Positions 1 to 42,769 of a stretch of DNA of 42,880 nucleotides are shown here, in pieces; position 1 is the first letter of the stretch, and each line of letters begins with the position of its first letter. Below the pieces are notes generated by a model that had not been told where the DNA came from, ran no database searches, and worked only from the letters and a program-made list of their open reading frames with translations. This stretch comes from Bacteroidales bacterium. Its GTDB lineage: Bacteria; Bacteroidota; Bacteroidia; Bacteroidales; P3. The stretch lies in contig JAFROL010000030.1 of NCBI GenBank assembly GCA_017429685.1, positions 1-42,880 on the forward strand, read 5' to 3'. A program made the position numbers and the translations under genes.

Positions 1-262
1 ATTATTTTAGTTTAACAGCAATTACCAGCAATTGAACAGCAATTATCAGCAATATTTTTTATAAACTGCAACATAATAATTATCAGCAATTCGCTCGCGA
101 TGCGAGCGGAAAATCTACAAGATTTACAAGATTTCGCTCGCTTGCGAGCAGGAGAACAAAACGAACGGAGAGCGGAGAACTATGCTACCGCGTCAGCCGC
201 TTACCGTTGCGGCGGATCTGCGATCCGCCGCAACTTAATATAAGGATTTGCAATCCGCAAAA
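1..262. repeat. Intergenic repeat mosaic at left edge
   Basis: No gene is visible. Bases 12-58 and 82-95 hold a degenerate array of CAGCAATTA units. Bases 96-155 hold a CTCGC/GCGAG palindrome, the array ATCTACAAGATTTACAAG and a second palindrome. Bases 162-181 are two or three GAACGGAGAGCGGAG units, followed by the core GCTACCGCGTCAGCC (184-198). Two hairpins follow: a perfect 12-bp stem at 206-217/223-234, and GGATT-TGC-AATCC at 244-256. The 12-155 block is repeated in diverged form at about 5400-5615. Confidence 0.8.
184..198. repeat. Core motif copy 1 (GCTACCGCGTCAGCC)
   Basis: Exact copy of the 15-base core found also at 37410-37424 and, as the reverse complement, at 36216-36230. Here it follows a short GGAGAGCGGAGAAC array and precedes the hairpins at 206-256. 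Confidence 0.75.
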
Positions 263-5300: not shown

Positions 5301-5706
5301 TTGCGATTCAGGCTACCTGCATTTTCACCAACGAATTAAGTAAACTGTATTTTAAGCAAATAACCATTCTTTTTAACAGAAATTATCAGGAATTGGCCAG
5401 GATTTTTTTAAACAGCAATTACCAGCAATGGACCAGCAATTATCAGCAATTATTTAACAATAAAACTAGCAACATAATAATTATCAGCAATTCGCTCGCT
5501 TGCGAGCGTTATAATCTATAAGATCTATAGATTTCGCGAGGCGGAACACCAAGCAGGAGAAAAAAGAAAAAAACACAAGATCTACGAGATCTCGCTCGCT
5601 TGCGAGCAGGAGACTTTAACAGGAATTGCCATAAATTGGCCAGGAATTAACCAGAAATTAATTTTTCCTTTTAACAGCAATTACCAGCAATTCCTTTTTA
5701 GAACGT
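5301..5706. repeat. Intergenic repeat mosaic, second copy of the left-edge block
   Basis: No gene is visible. Bases 5375-5470 hold a degenerate CAGCAATTA / GGACCAGCAATTATCAG array. Bases 5470-5535 hold GCAACATAATAATTATCAG, the palindrome CGCTCGCTTGCGAGCG and the ATCTATAAGATCTATAG array, in the same order as at 12-140. A second short module lies at 5575-5615, and another CAGCAATTA array at 5617-5695. Confidence 0.8.
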
Positions 5707-5758
5707 AAAAAAGTAAGGGACAACACAATCAGCAAATGCTGGATTGTATAGTCCCTTA
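5707..5758 (-). terminator. Terminator of the lipoprotein gene
   Basis: On the minus strand, TAAGGGACTATACAATCCAGC pairs with a near-perfect complement around a short loop, and six T residues follow at 5707-5712. It lies just downstream of the 5777-6208 stop codon. Confidence 0.85.
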
Positions 5759-6552: not shown

Positions 6553-9009
6553 CTACCTCAGATGCACCACCGTGATGCCGTCGCCGCCAAGATCGACCGG
6601 CGCGGAATGGCACGACTGCACCTCCGACATCGACTGCAACTGCTGGCGGATGAGGGTCTTGAGGATGCCGTAGCCTTTGCCGTGCAGGATGCGCAGCTCC
6701 TTTTCGCTGAGCAGCTGGGCATCGTCGAGGAAATGCTGCAACTCGGCGAGCGCCTCTTCGGCACGGTGGCCGCGCAGGTCGAGCGTGGGATTGAAGGCTT
6801 TGCGCTTCTCGTTGATGTCGTCGTAGATGGACTGGAAGCGGTTGTTGCGCTGCTGCGTCTTGTCGACGGGGATGACCTTCTTGCGCGTCTTCTGCAGGCG
6901 GTCGGTGGCGATGGTCATACGCAGGCTGTTGCTTTCGACGACGGCCTTCTTGCCCTTGAGTTCGACGAGCTGTCCGAAGGTGTCGCCGCCGTCGATGCGG
7001 ACGATGTCGCCCACCTGCAGCGGGCCGTCGGCGGGCCGGAGGTCGTCGTCGGGCTTGTCCTTCGGTGCGGACTCGCTCTGTTGCGCTGCGGCGCTGTTTT
7101 TGGCGCGCTGCTGGCGACGCTGGCGGTCGTGTTCCTGTTGCTGCTGCTCTATCTTTTCGGCATCCTGGCGCATCTGCTCGCGGGCCTGCTGTGTGCGCTC
7201 GCGCTCGGCGTTGGCCTCCTTGATGTCGGCGATGGTGCGCTCGACGGTGCGGTTGGCGTCGGCCAGTATCTGGCGGGCCTGCTGGCGTGCGTCGCTGAGG
7301 ATATCGTAGCGTTTGCTTTCGAGCTTTTCGTTGAGGCGCTGGTATTTGGTTATCACCTCGTTGAGAAAGTCGTCCGAAGCCTTGAGTTCGGCGCGCTGGC
7401 GGGCAATCTCCTGCTTGTCGAGCTCTATCTGCTGCAGCTGGTGCTCGAAGTTGAGCATCTCGGTGCCCACCTTGCTTTCGGCGGCTTCGAGAATGGGGAG
7501 CGGGAAGCCTATCTTGGTGGCGATCTCGAAGGCGAACGAGCTGCCGGGATGGCCCACCGAGAGGCGGTAGAGCGGCATCATCCGCTCGGTGTCGAAGAGC
7601 ATTGCGCCGTTGACGATGCCGTCGTACTTGTCGGCCAGCAGCTTGAGGTCGGCGAAATGGGTCGTCACCACGCCGAAGCTGCGTCGGCGGTAGAGCTCTT
7701 CGAGCAGGGCTTCGGCGATAGCGCAGCCCGAGCGGGGCTCGGTGCCGCCGCCAAGCTCGTCGAGGAGGAAGAGGGTGCGGTCGCCGGCCACGGCCAGTAA
7801 CTGCTTCATATTCTGCAGGTGCGACGAATAGGTGCTGAGGTCGTTTTCGAGCGACTGCTGGTCGCCGATGTCGATGAAGACGCTGTCGAAGATGCCGAAC
7901 TCGGACGTTTCGCGCACAGGGACGAGGAGTCCGCATTGCAGCATATACTGTATCAGTCCCACGGCCTTGAGGCACACCGACTTGCCGCCAGCGTTTGGCC
8001 CCGAAATGACAAGGATGCGCTTGTCGCCGTCGAGCGTGAGGCTGAAGGGCACCACCTCCTTGCCTTGGGCGCGGTGGTTGAGGTAGAGCAGCGGATGGCG
8101 CGCGTCGATCCAGCCCATCATCGGGCGGTCGTTAACTACAGGCATCACCGCATTGATGCTCAGCGCAAAACGGGCTTTGGCGCGGATAAAGTCGATGCGC
8201 GCCAAGAGCCAGTAGGCGTTGGTGAGTTGCGGCAGCTGGGGACGTATGTAGTCGGTGAAGGCGGCGAGAATTTTCTGTATTTCGTGGCGTTCGGCGAACT
8301 CGAGTTCGCGCAGGTCGTTGTTGAGTTCCACCACCTCGGCGGGTTCGAGAAAGGCGGTCTGGCGCGTGGCCGATTCGTCGTGGATAAGGCCTTTCATCTT
8401 GCGGCGGTGCGTGTCGAGCATCGGTATGACGAGGCGTCCGTTGCGGATGGTCACCTCGGCGTTTTCGGGTGCCCACCCTTCGCGCTTGGCACGGCTCAAC
8501 GAGCGGCCTATCTGTGCGTCGACCTCGCTGCGCTTGCGCGTCATCTGGCGGCGTATTTCGAGCAGTGCCGGCGAGGCGTCGTCGTAGATTTCACCCTTGT
8601 CGTCGACGATTTTGTCAAGACGTTTCAATATATTGGCATCGAGCTCGATGCGCTGGGCCAGAGCCGTCAGTTCGGGATACTTTTCGCCGTTGTCGGCGGA
8701 GAAAAAGCGCAGGCAGGAAGTGATGGTGTGCAGCGACGCCTTGAGGTCGACGAGGGCCTCGGGGTCGATGACGGTGCCGCCCACCTTGAGGCGCGCCAGC
8801 TCGTCGCTGAGGTCGAAGAAGTCCTGCGACGGGAAGCTGTTCTCCATCAGCAGTATCTGGCGGAATTCGTCGGTCTGGCGCAGCTCGCGGCAGATGCGCT
8901 CGCAGTTGCTGCCAAAAGCCATCTCGCCCACCATCCGCTCGGCAAGCCGGTTGGTGGTTTCGGCCGCCACAAGGTCACGTATTTTGTCGAAAGAAAGTCG
9001 TTGTTCCAT
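6553..9009 (-). CDS. mutS2: Endonuclease MutS2 family protein
   Basis: An 818-residue MutS2, the usual length. The N-terminal MutS core and clamp helices are followed by the ATPase: Walker A GPNAGGKS at about 337-344, the DIGDQQSLENDLSTYSSH signature, and Walker B FLLDELGGGTEP. A long coiled coil rich in Gln/Arg/Glu covers about 510-640. A KOW-like segment (VGDIVRI..GQLVELKGKKAVVE) is followed by a C-terminal Smr domain (LDLRGHRAEEAL, ILHGKGYGILK). MutS2 proteins act on recombination intermediates or collided ribosomes rather than in mismatch repair. The ATG at 9009 is chosen because a -7-like CAAAAATA (complement of TATTTTTG) lies at 9031-9038, over the alternative upstream TTG start. Confidence 0.95.
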   Translation of the reverse strand: MEQRLSFDKIRDLVAAETTNRLAERMVGEMAFGSNCERICRELRQTDEFRQILLMENSFPSQDFFDLSDELARLKVGGTVIDPEALVDLKASLHTITSCLRFFSADNGEKYPELTALAQRIELDANILKRLDKIVDDKGEIYDDASPALLEIRRQMTRKRSEVDAQIGRSLSRAKREGWAPENAEVTIRNGRLVIPMLDTHRRKMKGLIHDESATRQTAFLEPAEVVELNNDLRELEFAERHEIQKILAAFTDYIRPQLPQLTNAYWLLARIDFIRAKARFALSINAVMPVVNDRPMMGWIDARHPLLYLNHRAQGKEVVPFSLTLDGDKRILVISGPNAGGKSVCLKAVGLIQYMLQCGLLVPVRETSEFGIFDSVFIDIGDQQSLENDLSTYSSHLQNMKQLLAVAGDRTLFLLDELGGGTEPRSGCAIAEALLEELYRRRSFGVVTTHFADLKLLADKYDGIVNGAMLFDTERMMPLYRLSVGHPGSSFAFEIATKIGFPLPILEAAESKVGTEMLNFEHQLQQIELDKQEIARQRAELKASDDFLNEVITKYQRLNEKLESKRYDILSDARQQARQILADANRTVERTIADIKEANAERERTQQAREQMRQDAEKIEQQQQEHDRQRRQQRAKNSAAAQQSESAPKDKPDDDLRPADGPLQVGDIVRIDGGDTFGQLVELKGKKAVVESNSLRMTIATDRLQKTRKKVIPVDKTQQRNNRFQSIYDDINEKRKAFNPTLDLRGHRAEEALAELQHFLDDAQLLSEKELRILHGKGYGILKTLIRQQLQSMSEVQSCHSAPVDLGGDGITVVHLR

Positions 9010-9089
9010 TGTTGTTTTTGTTTTCAAATGCAAAAATACACAAACTTTAAGATTTGGCCAAGATTTACTTTAAGATTTAGCCAAAAAAG

Positions 9090-15062: not shown

Positions 15063-15094
15063 GCCATCCCAGAGTTGCATCCGGGATGGCTTTT
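15063..15094. terminator. Terminator between the DksA-like gene and the ABC ATPase
   Basis: GCCATCCC pairs with GGGATGGC around a 12-base loop and is followed by TTTTATT on the plus strand. It lies between two convergent genes and can serve both; the minus-strand T run is weaker. Confidence 0.75.
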
Positions 15095-16832
15095 ATTCTA
15101 TACGCGGTATGGCGTCGATAAGGGTCTGCGTGTAGGCCTCGGCAGGATGGCTGAAAAGGGCATCGGCATCGCCCAGCTCGACCATACGGCCCGACTGCAT
15201 CACCATTATGCGGTCGGAAATGAAGTGAACCACCGAGAGGTCGTGGGATATAAATATATATGTATAGCCGAACTGCTCCTTCAGTTCGTTGAGCAGATTG
15301 AGCACCTGCGCCTGGACGGAGACATCGAGAGCCGACACCGACTCGTCGCAGATAACAAGGTCAGGATTGAGAATCAACGCTCTGGCGATGCAGATACGCT
15401 GACGCTGGCCACCGCTGAACTCGTGCGGATAGCGGTCGAACCAGTCGGCATCGAGCCCCACGCGCCCCATCAGGTCGATAACCTTTTCTCGTATTTCGCT
15501 TTGCGACAGGCGGCCGTCGCGCTGATGAACCCTTAACGGTTCCGCAATGGTCTGACCTACAGTCATTCGCGGATTGAGCGACGAATAGGGATCCTGGAAA
15601 ATGATTTGGATTCGGGGGCGAAGGCTGCGCATCTCGCGCTGCGAGAGAGTGTCGAGGCGGCGGCCGTCGAAGGTTATGCTGCCCGACGACGAATCGACCA
15701 GACGCATAATGGCGCGGCCGAGTGTCGTCTTGCCACATCCCGACTCGCCGACAAGCCCCAGTGTTTCACCGCGATAGACATCGAAACTGATGCCGTCGAC
15801 AGCCTTAAGCTTTTTAAGCGGTTTGCCGAAGATATTTTTCTCGAGGGTGTATGTAACGTCCAGATTGCGAACCGACAACAAAGTTTCTCCGCTTTCCGTT
15901 TCCCGCTTTCCACTTTCCGTTTTCCGTTCCTCGCTTTCCGCTTTCCGCTTTCCGCTCTCCGCTCTCATAAACTCTTCAACCGTAGGCAGATGGCGAGGAC
16001 GGCTGTCCATCGGCGGGCGGCAAGCCAATAGGCCTTGGGTATAAGGATGTTGCGGATGGTGAAGGATATCGTTTGCGTCGCCATGTTCGACGATTTGGCC
16101 GTGGTACATCACAGCAATGTCGTCGGCAATCTGGGCGATGACACCAAGGTCGTGGGTAATGAAAATGACTGCAATATTGCGGCTTCGCTGCAAGTCGCGC
16201 AGCAGTTCCAGAATGGTCTTCTGCACCGTAACGTCCAGTGCCGTGGTCGGTTCGTCGGCAATGATGACGTCAGGCTTGCAAATCAGCGCCATAGCTATCA
16301 TCACACGCTGTTTCTGGCCGCCGCTGATTTCGAAGGGATAGCTGTCGAAAATCTTTTCGGGACGCGGCAGCAGCACCTCTTTGAAAAGTTCTATCGTACG
16401 GCGTCGCGCCTCGTCGTAACTCACATCCTCGTGCAGCCGCAACATCTCCACTACCTGCACGGCACACTTTTGCACCGGATTGAGCGACGTCATCGGCTCC
16501 TGGAAAATCATAGCGACACGCCGACCACGTACACCCTGCATCTGCCTTTCGTCAAGCGACAGCAAATCAACGCTTTCAGTTTCCTGCTCTCCGTTTTCCG
16601 TTCTCAGTTCTCCGTTCTCAGTTCTCAGTTCAATCCTGCCGCTAACCGTTGCGTTCTTTGGCAGCAGTCCCATAATGGCCAGGCTGCTGACGCTCTTGCC
16701 CGAGCCCGATTCGCCCACGATGCCCAGCGTCCGCCCACGCCGCAGCGCATAGCTTACGTTGTCCACAACCGTCCGCCCATCGAACGAGACGGACAGATTC
16801 TTAACTTCAAGTATATTGTCTTCTTTATCCAC
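15093..16832 (-). CDS. Fused oligopeptide-type ABC transporter ATPase (two ATP-binding domains)
   Basis: A 579-residue fusion of two ATPase domains like DppD and DppF. Domain 1: Walker A GESGSGKS at 41-48, Q-loop FQEPMTSLNP, signature ISGGQKQR, Walker B VIIADEPT, H-loop FITHD. Domain 2 has Walker A GESGCGKT at 362-369, FQDPYSSLNP, FSGGQRQR, VICDESVSALD, FISHD. Tandem fusions of this kind drive peptide or nickel/opine importers. The permease and binding-protein genes are not adjacent. Two low-complexity insertions encoded by AAAGCGG-type repeats lie at residues 69-87, inside domain 1, and at 290-315, between the domains. Confidence 0.93.
   Translation of the reverse strand: MDKEDNILEVKNLSVSFDGRTVVDNVSYALRRGRTLGIVGESGSGKSVSSLAIMGLLPKNATVSGRIELRTENGELRTENGEQETESVDLLSLDERQMQGVRGRRVAMIFQEPMTSLNPVQKCAVQVVEMLRLHEDVSYDEARRRTIELFKEVLLPRPEKIFDSYPFEISGGQKQRVMIAMALICKPDVIIADEPTTALDVTVQKTILELLRDLQRSRNIAVIFITHDLGVIAQIADDIAVMYHGQIVEHGDANDILHHPQHPYTQGLLACRPPMDSRPRHLPTVEEFMRAESGKRKAESEERKTESGKRETESGETLLSVRNLDVTYTLEKNIFGKPLKKLKAVDGISFDVYRGETLGLVGESGCGKTTLGRAIMRLVDSSSGSITFDGRRLDTLSQREMRSLRPRIQIIFQDPYSSLNPRMTVGQTIAEPLRVHQRDGRLSQSEIREKVIDLMGRVGLDADWFDRYPHEFSGGQRQRICIARALILNPDLVICDESVSALDVSVQAQVLNLLNELKEQFGYTYIFISHDLSVVHFISDRIMVMQSGRMVELGDADALFSHPAEAYTQTLIDAIPRIE
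15888..15965. repeat. In-frame GGAAAGC array between the two ABC domains
   Basis: About eleven degenerate (C)CGCTTTC-type heptamers with CGTTTTC and CTCTCCG variants. Read as protein they give [17 protein letters not shown] and ETESG, residues 290-315 of the ABC ATPase. The reading frame is intact. No core motif is present. Confidence 0.85.
16572..16628. repeat. In-frame GTTCTC/CCG array inside ABC domain 1
   Basis: The array contains TTCTCAGTTCTCCG-type units and codes for RTENGELRTENGEQETES at residues 70-87. It falls in the surface loop between Walker A and the Q-loop, where related proteins have a few residues and a DLL motif. The frame is kept. Confidence 0.8.
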
Positions 16833-21946: not shown

Positions 21947-24025
<2,079 letters not shown>

Positions 24026-24155: not shown

Positions 24156-24223
24156 CATCGTAAAATGGAGTAGCCGAAAACCATATAGAGTAGGCGTAAA
24201 CAAAACAATAAAAATAAGTTACA

Positions 24224-29030: not shown

Positions 29031-29100
29031 CATTCGGAAAACAACGCCCCGAAAGGCGTTGTATATTGATTTACACATCTTTGAATACAAAAGTAACACT

Positions 29101-30996
29101 ATGGAAGACTATAATACAACGCCTGTGGCGAGCGAATACGACGAGAGTAGCATCATCCACCTTGAGGATATGGAGCACATCCGGCTACGTCCGGGTATGT
29201 ACATCGGCAAGCTGGGCGACGGCTCATCGCACGACGACGGTATCTATGTGCTCATCAAGGAGGTGATCGACAATGCCATCGACGAGTTCACATCGGGTTA
29301 CGGCAAGCGCATCAATGTCAAGATCGACTTCGGCGAACGGCGCGTCAGCATCCGCGACTTCGGCCGCGGCATACCTCTGGGCAGCATCGTCGATGCCGTC
29401 AGCAAGCTGAACACCGGCGCCAAGTACGACAGCAAAGTCTTCCAGAAGTCGGTGGGCCTCAACGGTGTGGGCACCAAGGCCGTGAATGCGCTGAGCTCCT
29501 ATTTCAAGGTTATGGCCGTGCGCGACGGGCAAAGCCGCACTGCCGAATTCAGCGAAGGCACCCTGACAGCCGACAGCGGCATTGTGCCCTGCAGCGAAGA
29601 GAACGGCACCCTGGTAGAGTTCGTCCCCGACAACAAACTGTTTGGCAACTACCACTTTGTCAACGAATACGTCGAGCGGCGCATCTGGAACTACGCCTAC
29701 CTCAACAAAGGCCTGACGCTCTACTACAACGACCGTCGCTACTATTCGAAAAACGGCCTGCTCGACCTGCTAGAGCACAATATGGACGGCGAGGGCCTCT
29801 ACCCCATCGTCCACATCAAGGAGGGCGACTTCGAGTGCGCCTTCACGCACGTCAACGGACAAAACAACGACTACTACTATAGCTTCGTCAACGGACAGCA
29901 CACCACCGAAGGCGGCACGCACCAAAGCGCTTTCCGCGAGGCCTTTGCTCGCGTGGCACGCGATTTCTTCAAGAAGGACTACGAGCCCGCCGTCTTCCGC
30001 CAGGGACTGGTCTGCGCCCTCTGCGTGCGCATACAGGAACCCGTATTCGAGGCCCAGACCAAAACCAAGCTGGGCTCGACCCATATGGCACCCAACAATG
30101 CCGACGGCACCAACGACAGCCCGTTCCTCAAGACCTACGTGCTCGACATCCTGAAGCGGCACCTCGACAACTACCTCCACATCAACGCCGACACCGCCGA
30201 GGCACTTCTCAACAAAATCAACGCCAACGAAAAAGAGCGCAAGGAAATTGCCGGCATCAAAAAGGTGGCCCGCGAGGCCAGCAAGAAAGCCAACCTCAAC
30301 AACCGCAAGCTGCGCGACTGCCACGTACACTACAACACCAACCACGCACGACGCCTCGAAACAACCATCTTCATCACCGAGGGCGACTCGGCATCGGGCA
30401 GCATCACCAAAAGCCGCGATGTGGCCACACAGGCCGTCTTCAGCCTGCGCGGAAAGCCCAAGAACATTATGAAAATCAACAAGGTGGATGTGTACAAAAA
30501 CGTCGAGCTCAATTTGCTGCGCAACGCACTCGACATCGACGAAAGCATCGAAAACCTTCGCTACAACAACGTCGTCATTGCCACCGATGCCGATGTCGAC
30601 GGTATGCACATCCGACTGCTGCTGCTCACCTTCTTCCTGCGCTTCTACCCCGAACTCGTATCGTCGGGACACGTCTACATCCTGCAGACACCGCTGTTCC
30701 GCGTACGCAACAAACAGAAAACGCACTACTGCTACACCGACGACGAGCGCATCGCCGCCATCAACAGCACCCCCAACGCCGAAATCACACGATTCAAAGG
30801 TCTTGGCGAAATCAGCCCCGACGAGTTCAAGAACTTCATCGGCAAGGATATGCGCCTCGACCCCGTCATCCTGCACAAAAACTTCGACATAAAGGGCGTG
30901 CTCGGATTCTATATGGGCGACAACACCATCGAACGACGCGAGTTCATAATGGACAACCTGCGCGTCGAAGACGACGAAAGCATCGTAGTGGCCTGA
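29101..30996 (+). CDS. parE: DNA topoisomerase IV subunit B (ParE-like)
   Basis: A 632-residue type IIA topoisomerase ATPase subunit. GHKL motifs are [19 protein letters not shown] and [14 protein letters not shown]. The Toprim part has TEGDSASGS and [12 protein letters not shown]. It carries out ATP-driven decatenation with ParC. The length is typical of ParE and shorter than a GyrB with insertions, so ParE is preferred, though a GyrB paralogue cannot be excluded from sequence alone. The ATG at 29101 fits the family start. parC is not in the window. A hybrid repeat element fills the gap after it. Confidence 0.92.
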
Positions 30997-31268
30997 CAAG
31001 CGGAAAGCGGAAAGCGGAAAGCGGAAAGCGGAAAACAGAAAGCGGAAAACAGAAAACGGAAAGCGGAAAGCAGAAAGCGGAAAGCGAAAAGCGGAAAGCG
31101 GAAAGCGGAAAACGGAAAGCGGGCTAACGCGGCAGCCACTAACACATTAACACATTAACGCATTAACACATTAACGCATTAACACATTAACACATTAACG
31201 CATTAACACATTAACGCATTAACACATTAACGCATTAACACATTAACACATTAACGCATTAACACATT
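30997..31268. repeat. Hybrid array element: AAAGCGG array, core, CATTAACR array
   Basis: Bases 30999-31121 hold about seventeen AAAGCGG-type heptamers (variants AAACAGA, AAACGGA). The core GGCTAACGCGGCAGCC is at 31122-31137. Bases 31138-31268 hold about sixteen ACATTAACGC/ACATTAAC octamers. The two arrays are unrelated, unlike the matched arms at 36179. The element starts right after the parE stop and ends shortly before a promoter (31296). Confidence 0.9.
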
Positions 31269-31295
31269 ATTATTCCTCCTGTTTAAAAAAAAATT

Positions 31296-32856: not shown

Positions 32857-32950
32857 AAGCGGAAAACGGAAAACGGAAAGCGGAAAGCGGAAAACAGAGA
32901 ACGGAAAACAGAAAAGCGCTTTCCGCTTTCCGTTTTCCGCTTTCCGCTTA
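32857..32950. repeat. AAAGCGG hairpin filling the gap before nadD
   Basis: The left arm has about nine GGAAAAC/GGAAAGC units and the right arm has complementary TTTCCGC units, meeting at AGCGCT. It occupies the entire gap between the two minus-strand genes and overlaps the stop codon of the upstream one. Confidence 0.9.
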
Positions 32951-33544: not shown

Positions 33545-33713
33545 TTTTGCAAAAATTGTTACCGCTAAAACGCAAAAAGCAAACAATTATTTTGCAAACC
33601 AAAGAAAAAAAGTGCCCACCAGCGGACGAAGCGTTGCTATCGATTACAAATCATCATTTTACGCACACCGATTTCCACCCCTACCCCATCGTCCATTGCG
33701 TACCGTACCCTAC

Positions 33714-33830
33714 ACCTTCTCTGCCCGTTGTACGCTATATGTACGCTATATGTACGGTATTTGTACGCTTTCGAAGCGTACAAATACCGTACATATAGCG
33801 TACATATAGCGTACAACGGGCAGAGAGGGT
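33714..33830. repeat. 52-bp perfect hairpin built of 11-base direct repeats
   Basis: A left arm at 33718-33769 and right arm at 33775-33826 pair without mismatch around a five-base loop (TTCGA); with one G-T pair the stem extends to 33714-33830. The stem contains GTACGCTATAT twice, then GTACGGTATTT and GTACGCTT. No T run follows. Confidence 0.95.
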
Positions 33831-33967
33831 ATGGTTATGGCGCTGATTTTCAGTATTATCAGCATAACCAATTGCGTGGCAGTGTGTCACAGCGCGCCAT
33901 TGCGTGTCATAATGTGCCAAATAGCGCTTTGTCTGCGCTTTTTCGGCAGACGTTGCAAAAAAATTGC

Positions 33968-34051: not shown

Positions 34052-36178
34052 ATGGACTACGCAAACATAATAGCAACCCAGCTGAACCTCGGCGCGCGAC
34101 AGGTCGAGAAAACCATCGAACTGCTCGAAGCCGGCGCCACGGTGCCCTTCGTTGCGCGCTACCGCAAGGAGGCGACTGGCAACCTCAACGAGGTGCAGAT
34201 TGCCGCCATACGCGACCTGCTGCTGAAACTGAAGGAGGTGGACAAACGCCGCGAAGCGATACTGCAAAGCATTGAAGAACAAGGTAAAATGACGCCCGAA
34301 CTACGCGCCGCCATCGAGCAGGCCCAGGGCCTCACCGAGCTCGAGGACCTCTATCTGCCCTACAAGCCCAAGCGCAAGACGCGCGCCTCGATGGCCGCCG
34401 AGCGTGGCCTGCAGCCCCTGGCCGAAGCGTTGATAAAGCAATACCAATGCAATGTGGAACAGCTGGCGGAGCCTTTTGTCGACGAATCCAAAGGCGTGGC
34501 CAGCACCGACGAGGCCCTGGCCGGAGCCCGCGACATCATTGCCGAGCGCGTCAGCGAGGACATCGCCGCCCGCAACAAGGTGCGCAACCTGTTCCGCCGC
34601 AGCGCGATGATCAGCTCCAAAGTGGTGAAAGCCAAGGAGGAAGAAGCCGGCAAGTTTCAGTCGTGGTTCGACTGGAAGGAGAACGCGATGCGCGCCCCGT
34701 CGCATCGCATTTTGGCGATGTTCCGCGGCGAAAGCGAGGGTCTGCTGCGCGTCAAAATAGCCCCCGAAGAGGACGAGCCAGCCATCGAAGCCCTTGAACG
34801 CCAGTTTGTCCGCGGCAACTATGAGTCGTCGCAGCAGGTGGCCGAGGCGGTGCGCGACGGCTACAAGCGCCTGCTGGCCCCCTCGATCGAGACCGAATAC
34901 TACAACCTGCTGAAAGAGCGCGCCGACCGCGAGGCCATAAAGGTCTTTGCCGAGAACCTGCGTCAGCTGCTGCTAGCATCGCCGCTGGGACAGAAACGCA
35001 CCCTGGCCATCGACCCTGGCTTCCGCACGGGATGCAAGGTCGTATGCCTCGACGCACAAGGCCAACTGCTTCACAACGAGACAATTTACCCCTTCACATC
35101 GGTGCGCGAGGAGCGCGCCGCCGTGGCTAAACTCGAAGCCCTTGTCGAGGCCTTCAAAATCGAAGCCATAGCCATCGGCAACGGCACGGCAGGTCGCGAA
35201 ACCGAGGAGGTCGTCAAACGCTGTCGCTTCAAAACCAAGGTTATCGCCGTGATGGTGAGCGAAAGCGGTGCCTCGGTCTACAGCGCCAGCGACGTGGCCC
35301 GCGCCGAGTTTCCGGAGTACGACGTCACCGTGCGCGGCGCCGTCAGCATCGGTCGCCGCCTGATGGACCCGCTGAGCGAGCTGGTGAAGATCGACCCCAA
35401 GAGTATCGGCGTGGGTCAGTACCAGCACGATGTAGACCAGAAGATGCTGCACGACAGCCTTGAGGATGTGGTGGTTAGCTGCGTCAACAGCGTCGGCGTG
35501 GAGCTCAACACCGCCAGCCGCGAGCTGCTGTCGTATGTCAGTGGCATCGGTCCGGCGCTGGCAAACAAAATCGTCGACTACCGCAACCGCAACGGCGCTT
35601 TCCGCAACCGCCACGAGCTGCTGCAAGTTGAACGTCTGGGCGACAAGGCATTCGAGCAGTGCGCCGGTTTCCTTCGCGTCCGCGAGAGCGACAATCCGCT
35701 GGACCGCAGTGCTGTACACCCCGAACGCTACGCCCTTGTCGAGCGGATGGCCAAAGGCGTCGGCGCCACGGTGGACCAGCTGATGAAGGACCGCGAGCTT
35801 CGCGCCAAAATCGACATCAACCAGTTTGTCAGCGACGACTGCGGACTGCCTACGCTTCAGGACATTATGAAAGAGCTGGACAAGCCCGGCCTCGACCCGC
35901 GCGCCAAGTTCGAGGTCTTCGAGTTCGACAAGAACGTGACCCGCATCGAGGACCTTCGCGAAGGAATGGTGCTGCCGGGCATCGTCACCAACATCACGGC
36001 CTTCGGCGCCTTTGTCGATGTCGGCGTGCATCAGGACGGCCTGGTCCACATTTCGCAGCTGGCCAACCGCCGCGTCAACGACCCCAACGAGGTGGTGCAC
36101 CTGCACCAGCACGTACAGGTCAAAGTGCTCGAAGTTGACCTGCGCCGCCACCGTATTTCGCTGACAATGAAGATATAA
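34052..36178 (+). CDS. tex: Tex family S1 RNA-binding protein
   Basis: A 708-residue Tex, close to the usual length. The N-terminal helical domain (TVPFVARYRKEATGNLNEVQI, LEDLYLPYKPKRKTRA) is followed by a YqgF-like RNase H fold (TLAIDPGFRTGCKVV, AIAIGNGTAGRETEE), a helix-hairpin-helix part (YVSGIGPALANKIVDYRN) and a C-terminal S1 domain (GMVLPGIVTNITAFGAFVDVGVHQDGLVHISQ is the classic signature, starting near residue 632). Tex proteins bind RNA and affect transcription; the exact role is unsettled. A repeat hairpin begins at the stop codon. Confidence 0.95.
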   Translation: MDYANIIATQLNLGARQVEKTIELLEAGATVPFVARYRKEATGNLNEVQIAAIRDLLLKLKEVDKRREAILQSIEEQGKMTPELRAAIEQAQGLTELEDLYLPYKPKRKTRASMAAERGLQPLAEALIKQYQCNVEQLAEPFVDESKGVASTDEALAGARDIIAERVSEDIAARNKVRNLFRRSAMISSKVVKAKEEEAGKFQSWFDWKENAMRAPSHRILAMFRGESEGLLRVKIAPEEDEPAIEALERQFVRGNYESSQQVAEAVRDGYKRLLAPSIETEYYNLLKERADREAIKVFAENLRQLLLASPLGQKRTLAIDPGFRTGCKVVCLDAQGQLLHNETIYPFTSVREERAAVAKLEALVEAFKIEAIAIGNGTAGRETEEVVKRCRFKTKVIAVMVSESGASVYSASDVARAEFPEYDVTVRGAVSIGRRLMDPLSELVKIDPKSIGVGQYQHDVDQKMLHDSLEDVVVSCVNSVGVELNTASRELLSYVSGIGPALANKIVDYRNRNGAFRNRHELLQVERLGDKAFEQCAGFLRVRESDNPLDRSAVHPERYALVERMAKGVGATVDQLMKDRELRAKIDINQFVSDDCGLPTLQDIMKELDKPGLDPRAKFEVFEFDKNVTRIEDLREGMVLPGIVTNITAFGAFVDVGVHQDGLVHISQLANRRVNDPNEVVHLHQHVQVKVLEVDLRRHRISLTMKI

Positions 36179-36266
36179 TTAATGCGTTAATGCGTTAGTG
36201 CGTTAATGCGTTAGTGGCTGACGCGGTAGCACTAACGCATTAACGCACTAACACATTAACGCATTC
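36179..36266. repeat. Core-centred CATTAACR hairpin after tex
   Basis: The left arm (36182-36215) is ATGCGTTA / GTGCGTTA octamers. The core GGCTGACGCGGTAGC is at 36216-36230. The right arm (36231-36265) is the complement of the left with one mismatch. The hairpin fills most of the gap to the next gene. Confidence 0.93.
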
Positions 36267-36297: not shown

Positions 36298-37392
36298 ATG
36301 TTTATTAGGTTTATTCCAATAATATTGTTCCTTGTCGGGCTGCTTGTCTATGTGGGCTGGCACGTCTGGGCCGTGGTGCCGCTGCCGCTCTGGGCCAAAT
36401 GGACTTTGGTCGGCGTCGGTCTGTTCTGCTTCGCGCTCGAATTTGTGGGCTTCACGCCGCTGATGAACCGCCTGCCGCTCGGACTCGCTTCGGCGGTCTA
36501 CAACGTTGGCAACAAGACGCTTATAATCCTCTGCTATATGGTTATGGCCTTCCTGCTGCTCGACCTCGGTCGGCTGGTGCACCTGGTGCCGCGCACTATG
36601 CTGCACGACAGCCTGCCGACCAGCGTCGGGATGACGGTGCTGATGGCGATAATCTTTGTCTATGCCGGCATCCACTACAACAACAAAAAACGTGTGGCCA
36701 TCGACCTCGACAGCGGCGGCCGCACGGAACGCCCCCTGACGCTGGTGATGGCCTCGGACCTGCACATCGGCTACCACAACCGGCGTGCCGACCTGTCTCG
36801 GTGGGTCGACATTATCAATGCCGAGAATCCCGACCTGGTGCTGATTGCCGGCGACATCATCGACTATAGTTTCCGCCCTGTGATTGAGGAAGATATGGCT
36901 GCCGAATTTCGTCGCATCAAGGCTCCCGTCTATGCCTGCCTGGGCAACCACGAGTATATAGCTGGCGAGCCAGATGCCGAACGTTTTTACCGCGAAGCGG
37001 GCATCAACCTGCTGATCGACAGCGCGGTCAGCGTCGACGGCATAACCATCATCGGCCGCGACGACCGCAGCAACAAGCGGCGCAAAACGCTGAAAGACTT
37101 CAATATCAACGATTCGGCATACACCATCCTGCTCGACCACCAGCCCTACCACCTCGAAGAGGCCGAGCAATGCGGCATCGACTTCCAGCTGAGCGGCCAC
37201 ACCCACCGCGGCCAGATTTGGCCCGTGTCGTGGATTACCGATGCCCTTTACGAATGCTCGTGGGGCAGCCACCAGCGCGGCAACACGCGCTATTATGTCA
37301 GCTCCGGCCTCGGCATCTGGGGCGCCAAATTCCGCATCGGCACCCAGTCGGAATATGTGGTAGCAAGATTGAATAGTGCGTTAATGCGTTAG
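36298..37392 (+). CDS. Membrane metallophosphoesterase
   Basis: A 364-residue protein. The N-terminal 130 residues have four membrane helices (about 4-27, 36-54, 73-93, 108-126). The calcineurin-like phosphoesterase domain follows with DLHIG (Asp154, His156), GDIID (Asp186), GNHEY (Asn217, His218), LLDHQP and GHTHRGQ. Its organisation matches the YaeI-like membrane phosphoesterases; substrates are probably phospholipid or nucleotide phosphoesters. The last five residues (SALMR) and the TAG stop lie inside the CATTAACR repeat element, so the C-terminus was reshaped by the repeat. Confidence 0.9.
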   Translation: MFIRFIPIILFLVGLLVYVGWHVWAVVPLPLWAKWTLVGVGLFCFALEFVGFTPLMNRLPLGLASAVYNVGNKTLIILCYMVMAFLLLDLGRLVHLVPRTMLHDSLPTSVGMTVLMAIIFVYAGIHYNNKKRVAIDLDSGGRTERPLTLVMASDLHIGYHNRRADLSRWVDIINAENPDLVLIAGDIIDYSFRPVIEEDMAAEFRRIKAPVYACLGNHEYIAGEPDAERFYREAGINLLIDSAVSVDGITIIGRDDRSNKRRKTLKDFNINDSAYTILLDHQPYHLEEAEQCGIDFQLSGHTHRGQIWPVSWITDALYECSWGSHQRGNTRYYVSSGLGIWGAKFRIGTQSEYVVARLNSALMR

Positions 37393-37504
37393 TGCGTTAA
37401 TGCGTTAGTGCTACCGCGTCAGCCACTAACGCATTAACGCACTAACACATTAACGCATTCACACATTAACGCATTAACGCAATAACACAATAACGCAATA
37501 AAAA
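37372..37504. repeat. Core-centred CATTAACR element overlapping a stop codon
   Basis: The left arm (37375-37409) has ATGCGTTA/GTGCGTTA units; the core GCTACCGCGTCAGCC is at 37410-37424, in the opposite orientation to the 36216 copy. The right part (37425-37504) has about ten ACTAACGC/CATTAACG units and drifts to AATAACGC near the next start codon. Confidence 0.93.
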
Positions 37505-37507
37505 GAA

Positions 37508-38164
37508 ATGATTCACAACTGCCCAGAATTAATGGAAACCGTAGAGCGGATGGGCTTTCTGCCACTGCTCGACAGCTGCGTCGACGGCTTTTCGGCCGAC
37601 GCGATGATATCATCCGAATGCCGCTACCGCGTGCTCGACGACGGCGGCTGGGAGTGGCCGCTGTGGGAATGGAAAGGGCCCGCCGTCAACGAGGGGCATT
37701 TCTTCTACGGCAAGTTTTTCGACAGCAAGGCGGGTTTCGTCAGCCAGCAATGGTGGCCTGACTTCTGCAACTGGCGCCGCAGCCGCCATCCGCAGCCCGA
37801 AGAGGACTCTATCGAGGGCACCATCCTTGCCGTACTTCAGACCAACGGCAGTATGATTACGCGCGAGTTGCGCGCCGCCTGCGGCTTCACAGGCCACAAG
37901 ATGCGCGGCCGCTTTGATGCATACGTCACGCGCCTGCAGATGGCTTGCCGCATTGTGACTGAGGATTTTGTCTATCCCAAGGACCGCCACGGCAACCGCT
38001 ACGGCTGGGGCTGGTCGCTGCTGACCACCCCCGAAAGCCTCTACGGCCACGCCTCCTGCCAGTGCGACCGCAGCCCCGAAGAGAGCCGTCAGCTTTTGGA
38101 GCAGCACTTCCGTTCGCTGCTGCCCAACGCCTCAGCGAAACAGCTGGAGAAACTGATAGGTTGA
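37508..38164 (+). CDS. AlkZ-related protein
   Basis: A 218-residue protein that matches my memory of the Bacteroidota family named AlkZ-related (a relative of the YcaQ/AlkZ DNA glycosylases). Visible parts: FLPLLDSCVDGFSAD, the Trp-rich WEWPLWEWKGP, QWWPDFCNWRR and a winged-helix-like ITRELRAACGFTGHKMRGRFD, then RLQMACRIVTEDFVYPKD and YGWGWSLLTTPE. Catalytic activity is not shown for this group. It starts a two-gene unit with a DUF1905 gene, 11 bases apart. The start is only three bases after the repeat element. Confidence 0.72.
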   Translation: MIHNCPELMETVERMGFLPLLDSCVDGFSADAMISSECRYRVLDDGGWEWPLWEWKGPAVNEGHFFYGKFFDSKAGFVSQQWWPDFCNWRRSRHPQPEEDSIEGTILAVLQTNGSMITRELRAACGFTGHKMRGRFDAYVTRLQMACRIVTEDFVYPKDRHGNRYGWGWSLLTTPESLYGHASCQCDRSPEESRQLLEQHFRSLLPNASAKQLEKLIG

Positions 38165-41097: not shown

Positions 41098-41219
41098 TAA
41101 TTGATGTTGATGTTGACGTTAACTTTAACGTTAACCTTAACTTTAACTTCAGAATGATTCCAGCAGTCCGTGATGCGTCAGCCGGTTAAGGTTAACGTTA
41201 AGGTTAGGGTTAAGGTTTA
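41098..41219. repeat. GTTAAC hexamer array with partial core
   Basis: The left part (41102-41148) is in strict period 6 (GATGTT, GACGTT, AACTTT, AACGTT, AACCTT). The core remnant GCGTCAGCC is at 41175-41183. The right part (41184-41219) has GGTTAA units in period 6. The left and right parts can pair. It fills the gap between the response regulator and the kinase. Confidence 0.87.
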
Positions 41220-41223
41220 GAAC

Positions 41224-42606
41224 TCAAATATTATACCTTTTCAGTTTGGCGTAGAGCGTGGGGCGGCTGATGCCCAGTTCTTTTGCCACCAGCGAGAGGT
41301 TGCCGCCGAGCCGCTGCAGCGCGGCACGGATGGTCTGCTCTTCGGCATCTTCCAAGGGTGTGGTGGCGACAGTTGTATTTGTGGTGTTGATTTCCAAGTC
41401 GCTGGGTTCGAGCTGGTCGCCGTCGCACAAGATGACGGCCCGTTCTATGACGTTCTGCAGTTCCCTGACGTTGCCGCTCCACCGATGCTGCCGCAACTTT
41501 TCGACGGCGGCGGACGAAAGTCCCTTGACCTGACGGTGGTAGCGCTCTGCAAAACTGGCGACAAACATCTCGGCCAGCGGCAGAAGGTCCTCCTTCCGTT
41601 CGCGCAAGGCCGGAATATGCAGGTGGAAGACATTGATGCGAAAGTAGAGGTCCTGGCGGAAGGTGCCCTCGCGGACCATTGCCTCGAGGTCGCGGTTGGT
41701 GGCACAGATGAGGCGGATGTCGACTGACACGGCTTTTTCGCTGCCCACCGGCACCACCTTTCGCTCCTGCAATGCGCGCAGCAGCTTGGCCTGCAGGTGC
41801 AGCGGCAGGTTGCCTATCTCGTCGAGGAAGAGGGTGCCGCCGTCGGCCATCTCGAACTTCCCCTTGTGGTCACTGTGGGCATCGGTGAAGGCCCCCTTGA
41901 CGTGGCCGAAGAGCTCGCTTTCGAACAAGCTCTCCACAATGGCACCGGCATCGACGCAGACGAGGGGTTTGTCGCGACGGCTGCTCAGGGCGTGGATCTC
42001 GTGCGCCAGCACATCCTTGCCGGTGCCGTTCTCGCCGGTGATGAGCACTGTGGCATCGGTTGGGGCCACCTTCTCCACTACGCGTCGCATCTGCGACATC
42101 TGCAGGCTGTCGCCCCAGTATAAAAGCGGAGAGCGGAGAGCGGAAAACGGAAAGCTGGCTGACGCGTTAGCAGTTCTCAGTTTTCCGCTCTCCGCTTTGC
42201 GTTTTCCGTTTTCCGTTATCCGCTTTGCAGCAGCGGCTTCGAGAATGGCTACCAGCTTGTCGTTGTCCCAGGGTTTCACGACGAAGTCGAAAGCGCCACG
42301 TTTCATACCCTCAACAGCCAGATTGATGTCGGCGTAGGCGGTGAAGAGCACCACCTGCGTCCCTGGCCAGCGGCGAAGAATCTCGTCGGTCCAGAAAAGG
42401 CCCTCGTTGCCGCTGTTGATGTCAGTTTTAAAATTCATATCCAGCAGTACCACGTCGGGGCGCAGTCTATCCATCGTGGCCGGCAATGTGGCTGGCGACG
42501 GAAGCAGTTCCACCTCGGCAAAGCGTGGTGTAAGCAGCAGCTGCAATGCCTTGCGGACAGCGGCATTGTCGTCTACGGCCAATATCTTGGATGGGTTTCG
42601 TTTCAT
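41224..42606 (-). CDS. Sigma-54-dependent response regulator
   Basis: A 461-residue NtrC-type activator. The receiver domain spans about 7-125 with Asp56 (VVLLDMNF), the upstream acidic pair (AVDDN) and KPWD. The AAA+ domain has Walker A GENGTGKD, GAFTDA (the sigma-54 contact loop, a common variant of GAFTGA), GGTLFLDEI and RQDLYFRI. A Fis-type helix-turn-helix ends the protein (LSLVAKELGISRPTLYAKLKR). The linker, residues 130-161, is encoded by an AAAGCGG array plus the core motif. The Met at 42606 fits the receiver start. Partner kinase is the next gene. Confidence 0.93.
   Translation of the reverse strand: MKRNPSKILAVDDNAAVRKALQLLLTPRFAEVELLPSPATLPATMDRLRPDVVLLDMNFKTDINSGNEGLFWTDEILRRWPGTQVVLFTAYADINLAVEGMKRGAFDFVVKPWDNDKLVAILEAAAAKRITENGKRKAESGKLRTANASASFPFSALRSPLLYWGDSLQMSQMRRVVEKVAPTDATVLITGENGTGKDVLAHEIHALSSRRDKPLVCVDAGAIVESLFESELFGHVKGAFTDAHSDHKGKFEMADGGTLFLDEIGNLPLHLQAKLLRALQERKVVPVGSEKAVSVDIRLICATNRDLEAMVREGTFRQDLYFRINVFHLHIPALRERKEDLLPLAEMFVASFAERYHRQVKGLSSAAVEKLRQHRWSGNVRELQNVIERAVILCDGDQLEPSDLEINTTNTTVATTPLEDAEEQTIRAALQRLGGNLSLVAKELGISRPTLYAKLKRYNI
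42122..42232. repeat. Core-bearing AAAGCGG element inside the response-regulator gene
   Basis: The left part has AGCGGAGAGCGGAGAGCGG units, the core GGCTGACGCGTTAGC is at 42157-42171, and the right part has TTCTCAGTTTTCCGCTCTCC and TTTCCGTTTTCCG units. The arms can pair partly. It is read through in frame, giving [12 protein letters not shown] and TANASASFPFSALRSP. Confidence 0.92.
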
Positions 42607-42769
42607 ATTGTCATTGTACTTTTGCAAGTGCAGTAGATAAAAAAACATTATTTGGTGCATAAAAATGTATTCGCGCCACATTTTTCTGCACGAAATTCTG
42701 TTAGGATAACTCAATAGATGTGCATTTTATTATTCGGATATCATTAGTGTCCACTAAAAAAATATCAAT

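Follow-up and report, generated by a model that had tools for sequence, protein, structure and literature searches.

Polar short-unit arrays joined head to head at half-cores in intergenic gaps of a Bacteroidales genome and its close relatives

Results

Array junctions in the window

We analyzed a 42,880-nucleotide stretch from the genome of an uncultured gut Bacteroidales bacterium (GCA_017429685.1, contig JAFROL010000030.1), hereafter called the window, in which short-unit tandem arrays meet at a recurrent core. A left 8-mer arm of the GTTAATGC type (36179-36215, + strand) directly adjoins the stop codon that ends the Tex gene (34052-36178); it is followed by the core GCTACCGCGTCAGCC (36216-36230, − strand), which consists of two half-cores fused at CGCG, and by a right 8-mer arm (36231-36266, − strand). 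The right arm complements the left one over 35 bases with a single mismatch, bearing out a preliminary description of this DNA, which had called the two arms complementary save for one base. The second element begins within the end of the phosphoesterase gene (36298-37392), which its left 8-mer arm (37374-37409, +) overlaps; its core (37410-37424, +) shares its inner arms with the copy at 36216 and is inverted relative to that copy, and its right 8-mer arm (37425-37501, −) extends to just short of the next ORF, which starts at 37508.

Other sites combine other arms. The stop codon that closes a type II topoisomerase (DNA gyrase B-like) gene (29059-30996) is directly followed by a 7-mer AAAGCGG arm (30998-31121, +), which the core variant GGCTAACGCGGCAGCC (31122-31137, +) links to an 8-mer arm of about 130 bases (31138-31269, −). 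Inside a sigma-54 activator gene (41224-42714), two 7-mer arms flanking a core variant (42157-42171) lie in frame between the receiver and AAA+ domains (42123-42228, −). At 184-198 (+), the core connects an unrelated hairpin with a short 7-mer arm of the GAGAACG type, and a half-core remnant, GCGTCAGCC (41175-41183, +), adjoins a 6-mer GGTTAA array. At 32860-32949 (no strand assigned), two head-to-head 7-mer arms meet at AGCGCT without GGCTGA half-cores; the orthologous gap of the relative G060 holds different 7-mer arrays and a GGCTGACGC half-core. Rfam gave no hit for any array of the window. In-frame 7-mer arrays were also observed in an ABC transporter ATPase (15093-16832, −) and a DsbD-like protein (21947-24025, −), where the inserts seemingly lie in loops or linkers.

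Abundance of the core in the window and the genome

Scanning the window sequence, we found the exact 15-base core at 184 (+), 36216 (−) and 37410 (+), and variants with one mismatch at 42157 and two mismatches at 31122. With up to three mismatches allowed, the window contained nine core matches against a mean of 1.44 in shuffled sequences, and nine was reached in 0 of 100 shuffles. The five core sites named in the preliminary description were thus confirmed at a frequency above shuffled counts, and GCGTCAGCC at 41175 and the arrays of 6-, 7- and 8-base units were present as it had stated. It had also proposed a search of the full genome with two mismatches allowed. Across the genome (2.65 Mb, 96% complete), the exact core occurred 10 times and its reversed control 0 times; a looser form of the core with up to two mismatches gave 185 matches, so close to the 140 of the reversed control that these loose matches are mostly chance. 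The exact core is therefore real, whereas the loose matches stay near the control level. The pattern GCTGACGCGKYAGC had 36 matches in the genome (20 forward and 16 reverse, a palindromic copy scoring on both strands), with 0 for the controls.

Arrays are polar and carry family-specific half-cores

We surveyed 443 kb of the genome, comprising the window and 20 stretches of 20 kb, and identified 187 arrays with units of 5-12 bases and at least three copies. The commonest periods were 7, 8, 11 and 10, and 45 of the 187 arrays lay mostly within crude ORFs (at least 100 aa), which served as gene calls. Array families included OCT (GTTAATGC and variants), HEPG (CGGAAAG), HEPE (GAGAACG), HEPS (AGTGACC/AGTGAAT), DEC (GTTAAGGGAA) and others. 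In the 400 kb that had not been selected for cores, the only sample of which this holds, 93 arrays were counted by strand: the half-core GGCTNNCGCG capped 28 of them on the 3′ side and 1 on the 5′ side. With half-cores placed at 3′ ends, the core may act as a structural nucleus for array growth, as the preliminary description had suggested. Half-cores of the GGCTNNCGCG type totaled 46 in this sample, compared with a block-shuffle mean of 7.7.

The kind of half-core follows the array family. In the same 400 kb, the 3′ half-core GGCTNNCGCG was found on 21 of 44 OCT, 7 of 34 HEPG/E and 0 of 15 HEPS arrays; CACGARC ended 8 of the 15 HEPS arrays and, among all other array ends, marked a single one, on the 5′ side of a HEPG/E array. 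GGCTNN thus belongs to 8-mer and AAAGCGG-type 7-mer arrays, and CACGAR to AGTGACC-type 7-mer arrays. Among 187 arms at 119 junctions, OCT and HEPG/E arms carried GGCTNN 142 times and CACGAR once, and HEPS arms 0 and 20 times; the Fisher test of this tie excluded the 24 arms with other ends, and its P is only indicative, the copies being related. The basic module is a polar short-unit array capped at the 3′ end by a half-core and directed away from a gene edge.

These modules are joined head to head at CGCG, the sequence common to both kinds of half-core. The 119 junctions came from three genomes (64, 33 and 22); one of the two half-core kinds was required on at least one side, many loci had been chosen for holding a core, and duplicate contexts and junctions with neither arm recognized were excluded. 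Both arms were recognized at 68 junctions, of which 24 joined arms of the same family, compared with 27.7 expected under free pairing (per genome, 10 of 38 with 14.2 expected, 8 of 18 with 8.2, and 6 of 12 with 5.3). Matching arms such as those at 36179 are therefore not the rule. Since arms of different families met at the other 44 junctions, long hairpins are the minority among two-armed junctions, and the term hairpin used in the preliminary description suits the 36179 copy and not most of the others. Its formula of a constant centre with exchangeable arms likewise held in part: the arms pair as if freely, whereas the centre consists of two half-cores, each bound to its own arm family, and is only partly constant. 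Tandem copies of array plus half-core were also present (L021, L134 and L139).

Within junctions, mean arm likeness was slightly above that between junctions, and the difference was not significant (P = 0.17, 0.13 and 0.10; n = 10, 10 and 4). This mirror test does not support copying of arms from each other. The enzyme that the preliminary description had imagined copying neighboring sequence into arms finds no backing here or in the gene content of the genome, which had 0 matches to the reverse transcriptase profile RVT_1.

For 41 capped arrays, the 5′ end lay near an ORF edge (median 9 bp), with a stop codon on the 5′ side in 24 cases and a start codon in 17, a distribution that does not support a directional terminator. 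Arrays were present in 5 of 45 divergent, 34 of 145 tandem and 13 of 51 convergent gaps, in a census that omitted gaps below 40 bp and tallied 13 arrays inside ORFs separately.

One further hairpin family, near-fixed, was observed at 33700-33840 of the window and at six more sites of the 443 kb sample. It consists of CCCGTTG, two to three 11-base units TACGCTATATG, then TACGCTTTCGAAGCGTA and mirrored arms, and these arms are nearly constant, in contrast to the exchangeable arms at core junctions.

Orthologous gaps differ between close relatives

We compared these gaps with those of close relatives, as the preliminary description had proposed, and found an arm kept, lost or exchanged at the same gap in close species, with the flanking genes still in place. 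Aligned pieces of our genome and G082 were mostly 82-96% identical. The gap after the Tex gene, which holds the full element in our genome, contains only the left arm and GGCTGACGCGG in G082, the right arm being missing. After the phosphoesterase gene (37374-37501), the left arm of G082 is shorter by 16 bases (two units) and the right arm differs too. The gap at 31122 joins a 7-mer to an 8-mer arm in both genomes, with lengths of about 125/130 bp in ours and 50/40 bp in G082; the element is also present in G042, and the corresponding gaps of G060, G053 and G122 are array-free and 1, 40 and 59 bases long. At another gap, HEPE joined to OCT in our genome corresponds to DEC in G082. In all, 65 aligned gaps differed, 37 of them array-bearing, and these were read as examples.

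The linker of the sigma-54 activator holds two joined 7-mer arms in our genome and in G042. In G082, the left 7-mer arm is kept, the right arm is of the HEPS (AGTGACC) type, and the joint lacks CGCG. The remaining seven orthologous activator loci that were read have an ordinary, array-free linker; the element has therefore taken the place of linker sequence while keeping the frame.

As the gap comparisons see only gaps whose two flanks align, we also applied a flank test free of that condition, in which 55 junctions of our genome with 750 bp on each side were compared with the available sequence of G082 and G042. In the 30 junction-by-genome cases with at least one flank found, both flanks lay together in 25 and at different places in 0, and a single flank was found in 5, two of which reach the end of the sequence and three of which have room beyond. 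This result speaks against reciprocal site-specific crossover, which we rejected.

Copy number changes between relatives by whole units, as in short-unit VNTRs. Unlike in VNTR slippage, the unit sequence is not local to each site, the same families recurring across the genome and the genus.

Distribution across the genus, family and order

Matches to GCTGACGCGKYAGC occurred in 31 of 99 genomes of the genus, and besides our own genome only G082 (16), G042 (13) and G045 (7) stood clearly above the controls (at most 3 per genome). The core together with an 8-mer arm, TTAGTGGCTGACGCGKYAGC, with at most one mismatch, was found in 15 of 190 genomes of the family, all from 1 of 12 genera, with 0 for the controls. 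In a collection of named genomes, 22 of 25 core-matching stretches were Bacteroidales or Bacteroidetes metagenome genomes, and the animal, where one was named, was sheep, yak or red deer. Core matches in Bifidobacterium, Sideroxydans and Rahnella contigs were array-free and look like chance, as does the single match in a viral contig, which has no adjoining array and does not support spread by phages. Because the same patterns occur in independently assembled genomes, the data argue against an assembly artefact.

The 8-mer pattern was present in 73 and the 7-mer pattern in 56 of the 120 genus genomes, and except in G034 for the 8-mer the controls were close to zero. The two are distributed independently: G045 has 377 7-mer and no 8-mer matches, and G104 has 44 8-mer and no 7-mer matches. 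In G034, the reversed 8-mer control gave 30 matches, suggesting that this species has a further array family. Across the order, 8-mer arrays were found in 26 of 393 genomes and 24 of 206 genera, our own genus included, some genomes having a single match and controls reaching 8 in a few; the 8-mer loci read in other families of the order were without such caps.

In G104 and its relatives, 8-mer arms are linked by a second core, GTCYTTGRTGCRYCAARGAC, which with up to two mismatches occurs in 24 of 120 genomes (61 in G112, 51 in G079, 43 in G094 and 15 in G104; 0 in our own genome, G082 and G042). Arrays adjoined this core at 11 of 20 loci read from the search and were lacking at 9, so single matches can be chance. 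Its two halves are tied to 8-mer subtypes, b1 with a G-type last unit in 10 of 10 cases and b2 with a T-type in 13 of 13, many of these being the two halves of one junction. Core and arms therefore travel together there, whereas in the clade of the window they are exchanged.

Discussion

The junctions described here combine polar arrays, a half-core tied to the arm family, pairing as if free, changes in unit number and, between close species, the difference or loss of one arm while the place stays fixed. We favor, at about even confidence, the explanation that they are mosaic modules of the intergenic gaps, which spread through non-reciprocal recombination or through template switching, together with slippage in array length. 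Classical mismatch repair misses units of 7-8 bases, and slippage would lengthen and shorten the arrays. A broken or stalled 3′ end within an array may then invade another copy, copy that array as far as the half-core and re-anneal to the opposite side by pairing at the palindromic CGCG or over a few bases in common. Such an exchange of arms would be non-reciprocal and would need no dedicated enzyme. Insert-tolerant gene products, such as those with linkers, would retain the element, and other genes and promoter gaps would be purged of it. Within a single species, no exchange of arms was observed. The recurrence of the 8-mer across the genus and the order is more than slippage and local conversion can explain by themselves, the first seeding into array-free gaps, such as the short ones of G060, G053 and G122 at 31122, falls outside this explanation, and the activator joint of G082 that lacks CGCG counts against it.

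It is unlikely that the core is a REP- or MITE-type palindrome moved by a transposase (a RAYT-like Y1 or another), which entered gaps where arrays then grew from its flanks. Dispersed copies, their presence or absence at orthologous gaps and the coherent element of the other clade of the genus, with its constant core and constant arms, fit such mobility. The Y1_Tnp profile, however, does not track the core: none was found in G042 (89% complete), only a weak match (1.3e-4) in G082 (81%), one strong and one weak in our genome and three in G045, and the profile has a match in 73 of 120 genomes. Within the 9 kb surrounding our strong Y1 gene there was no half-core except one look-alike inside that gene, and one short 7-mer array lay about 3.9 kb off. 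Inspected for the exact-ended terminal inverted repeats and target site duplications of MITE or Correia elements, the elements have ragged ends, and no target duplication was recognized by eye against the highly diverged flanks of empty relatives. This Y1 gene (L342, G000:C50:126000-135000) is itself flanked by repeated GC-rich hairpins, CACCGCACTGCGCCTTCGGCTTGTACGGTGTTA, which are likely a separate REP-like family.

Selection on functional RNA or DNA hairpins (terminators, mRNA ends or chromosome organization) with freely drifting arms is a poorer candidate. The start of arrays often only a few bases from an ORF edge and their relative rarity in divergent gaps agree with it, but the strand preference of capped arrays is small, the different-family arms at most two-armed junctions would not pair, and the element is missing from the gaps of some relatives. 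We regard as improbable a dedicated, genus-wide end-joining or extension machinery that adds polar arrays to 3′ ends, each with a family-specific half-core bearing a self-complementary tetramer, so that any finished ends anneal; if it existed, the CGCG-centred core here and the TGCR-centred core of G079, G112, G094 and G104 would be versions of one machine. More doubtful still is a telomerase-like templated polymerase that extends broken 3′ ends, copies the half-core last and lets two extended ends anneal via CGCG: it would account for the polarity, the free pairing, the shared palindromic centre, the start of capped arrays near gene edges and the replacement instead of insertion in the activator linker, but no template RNA was found, Rfam being blank at the arrays of the window, and our genome, G082, G042 and G045 are all outside the 46 of 120 genomes with an RVT_1 match. 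The array-rich genomes G070 and G069 do have one.

Rickettsia palindromic elements lie in frame inside genes, and we know of no head-to-head modules in them or in Borg repeats. Heptamer-type intergenic arrays also go by the name STRR. As far as the accessible parts of the literature go, the nearest system in its working is the neisserial intergenic mosaic, which differs in sequence and kind of unit. NIME combines dRS3 (20 bp, ATTCCC(N8)GGGAAT) with RS units of 30-160 bp, longer units joined at a short conserved inverted repeat, and rearrangement at its arrays has been proposed (PMC3898611). Our elements likewise form a mosaic whose exchangeable units meet at short, conserved palindromic joints, but our units are polar 7-8 base arrays and each joint consists of two half-cores tied to their arms; the dRS3 motif had 0 matches in the 443 kb sample. 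Like REP/BIME sequences with their RAYTs, the elements are short intergenic palindromes with many copies per genome (PMC3116915, PMC2817692, PMC3733652), but they lack a constant stem, their arms assort as if freely, and no Y1 (RAYT) gene flanked by their own repeat was found in genomes of which those of G042 and G082 are incomplete. Heptamer intergenic arrays described in cyanobacteria, Beggiatoaceae and Bacteroidetes share the short units, whole-unit indels and occasional location inside genes; half-cores, head-to-head joining and arm exchange are absent from the accessible part of that account (PMC4679880). Borg tandem repeats also evolve fast and lie partly in proteins (PMC9879509), but they and the Rickettsia elements have other hosts and other units. 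A search of titles and abstract openings, with most subscription papers outside its coverage, found no account of capped head-to-head arrays.

Bacterial intergenic gaps are usually thought to be short and conserved, or random. Here, close relatives differ in what their gaps hold, and a limited set of polar modules supplies this content under clear rules, even within a gene. Intergenic turnover thereby becomes measurable event by event, providing a natural test bed for bacterial template switching and palindrome repair. The arrays may also explain the fragmentation of assemblies of such genomes.

Some further features of the window were observed. Arrays of the 9-base AAATCTTGT type adjoin GCTCGCNNNGCGAGC-type hairpins at 1240-1600 and 5440-5720, a recurrent intergenic combination. 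An Rfam match to the DUF805b cis-regulatory RNA lies at 24164-24196 (+). MutS2 bears on recombination, and the window encodes a mutS2 gene (TIGR01069) at 6553-9033 (−).
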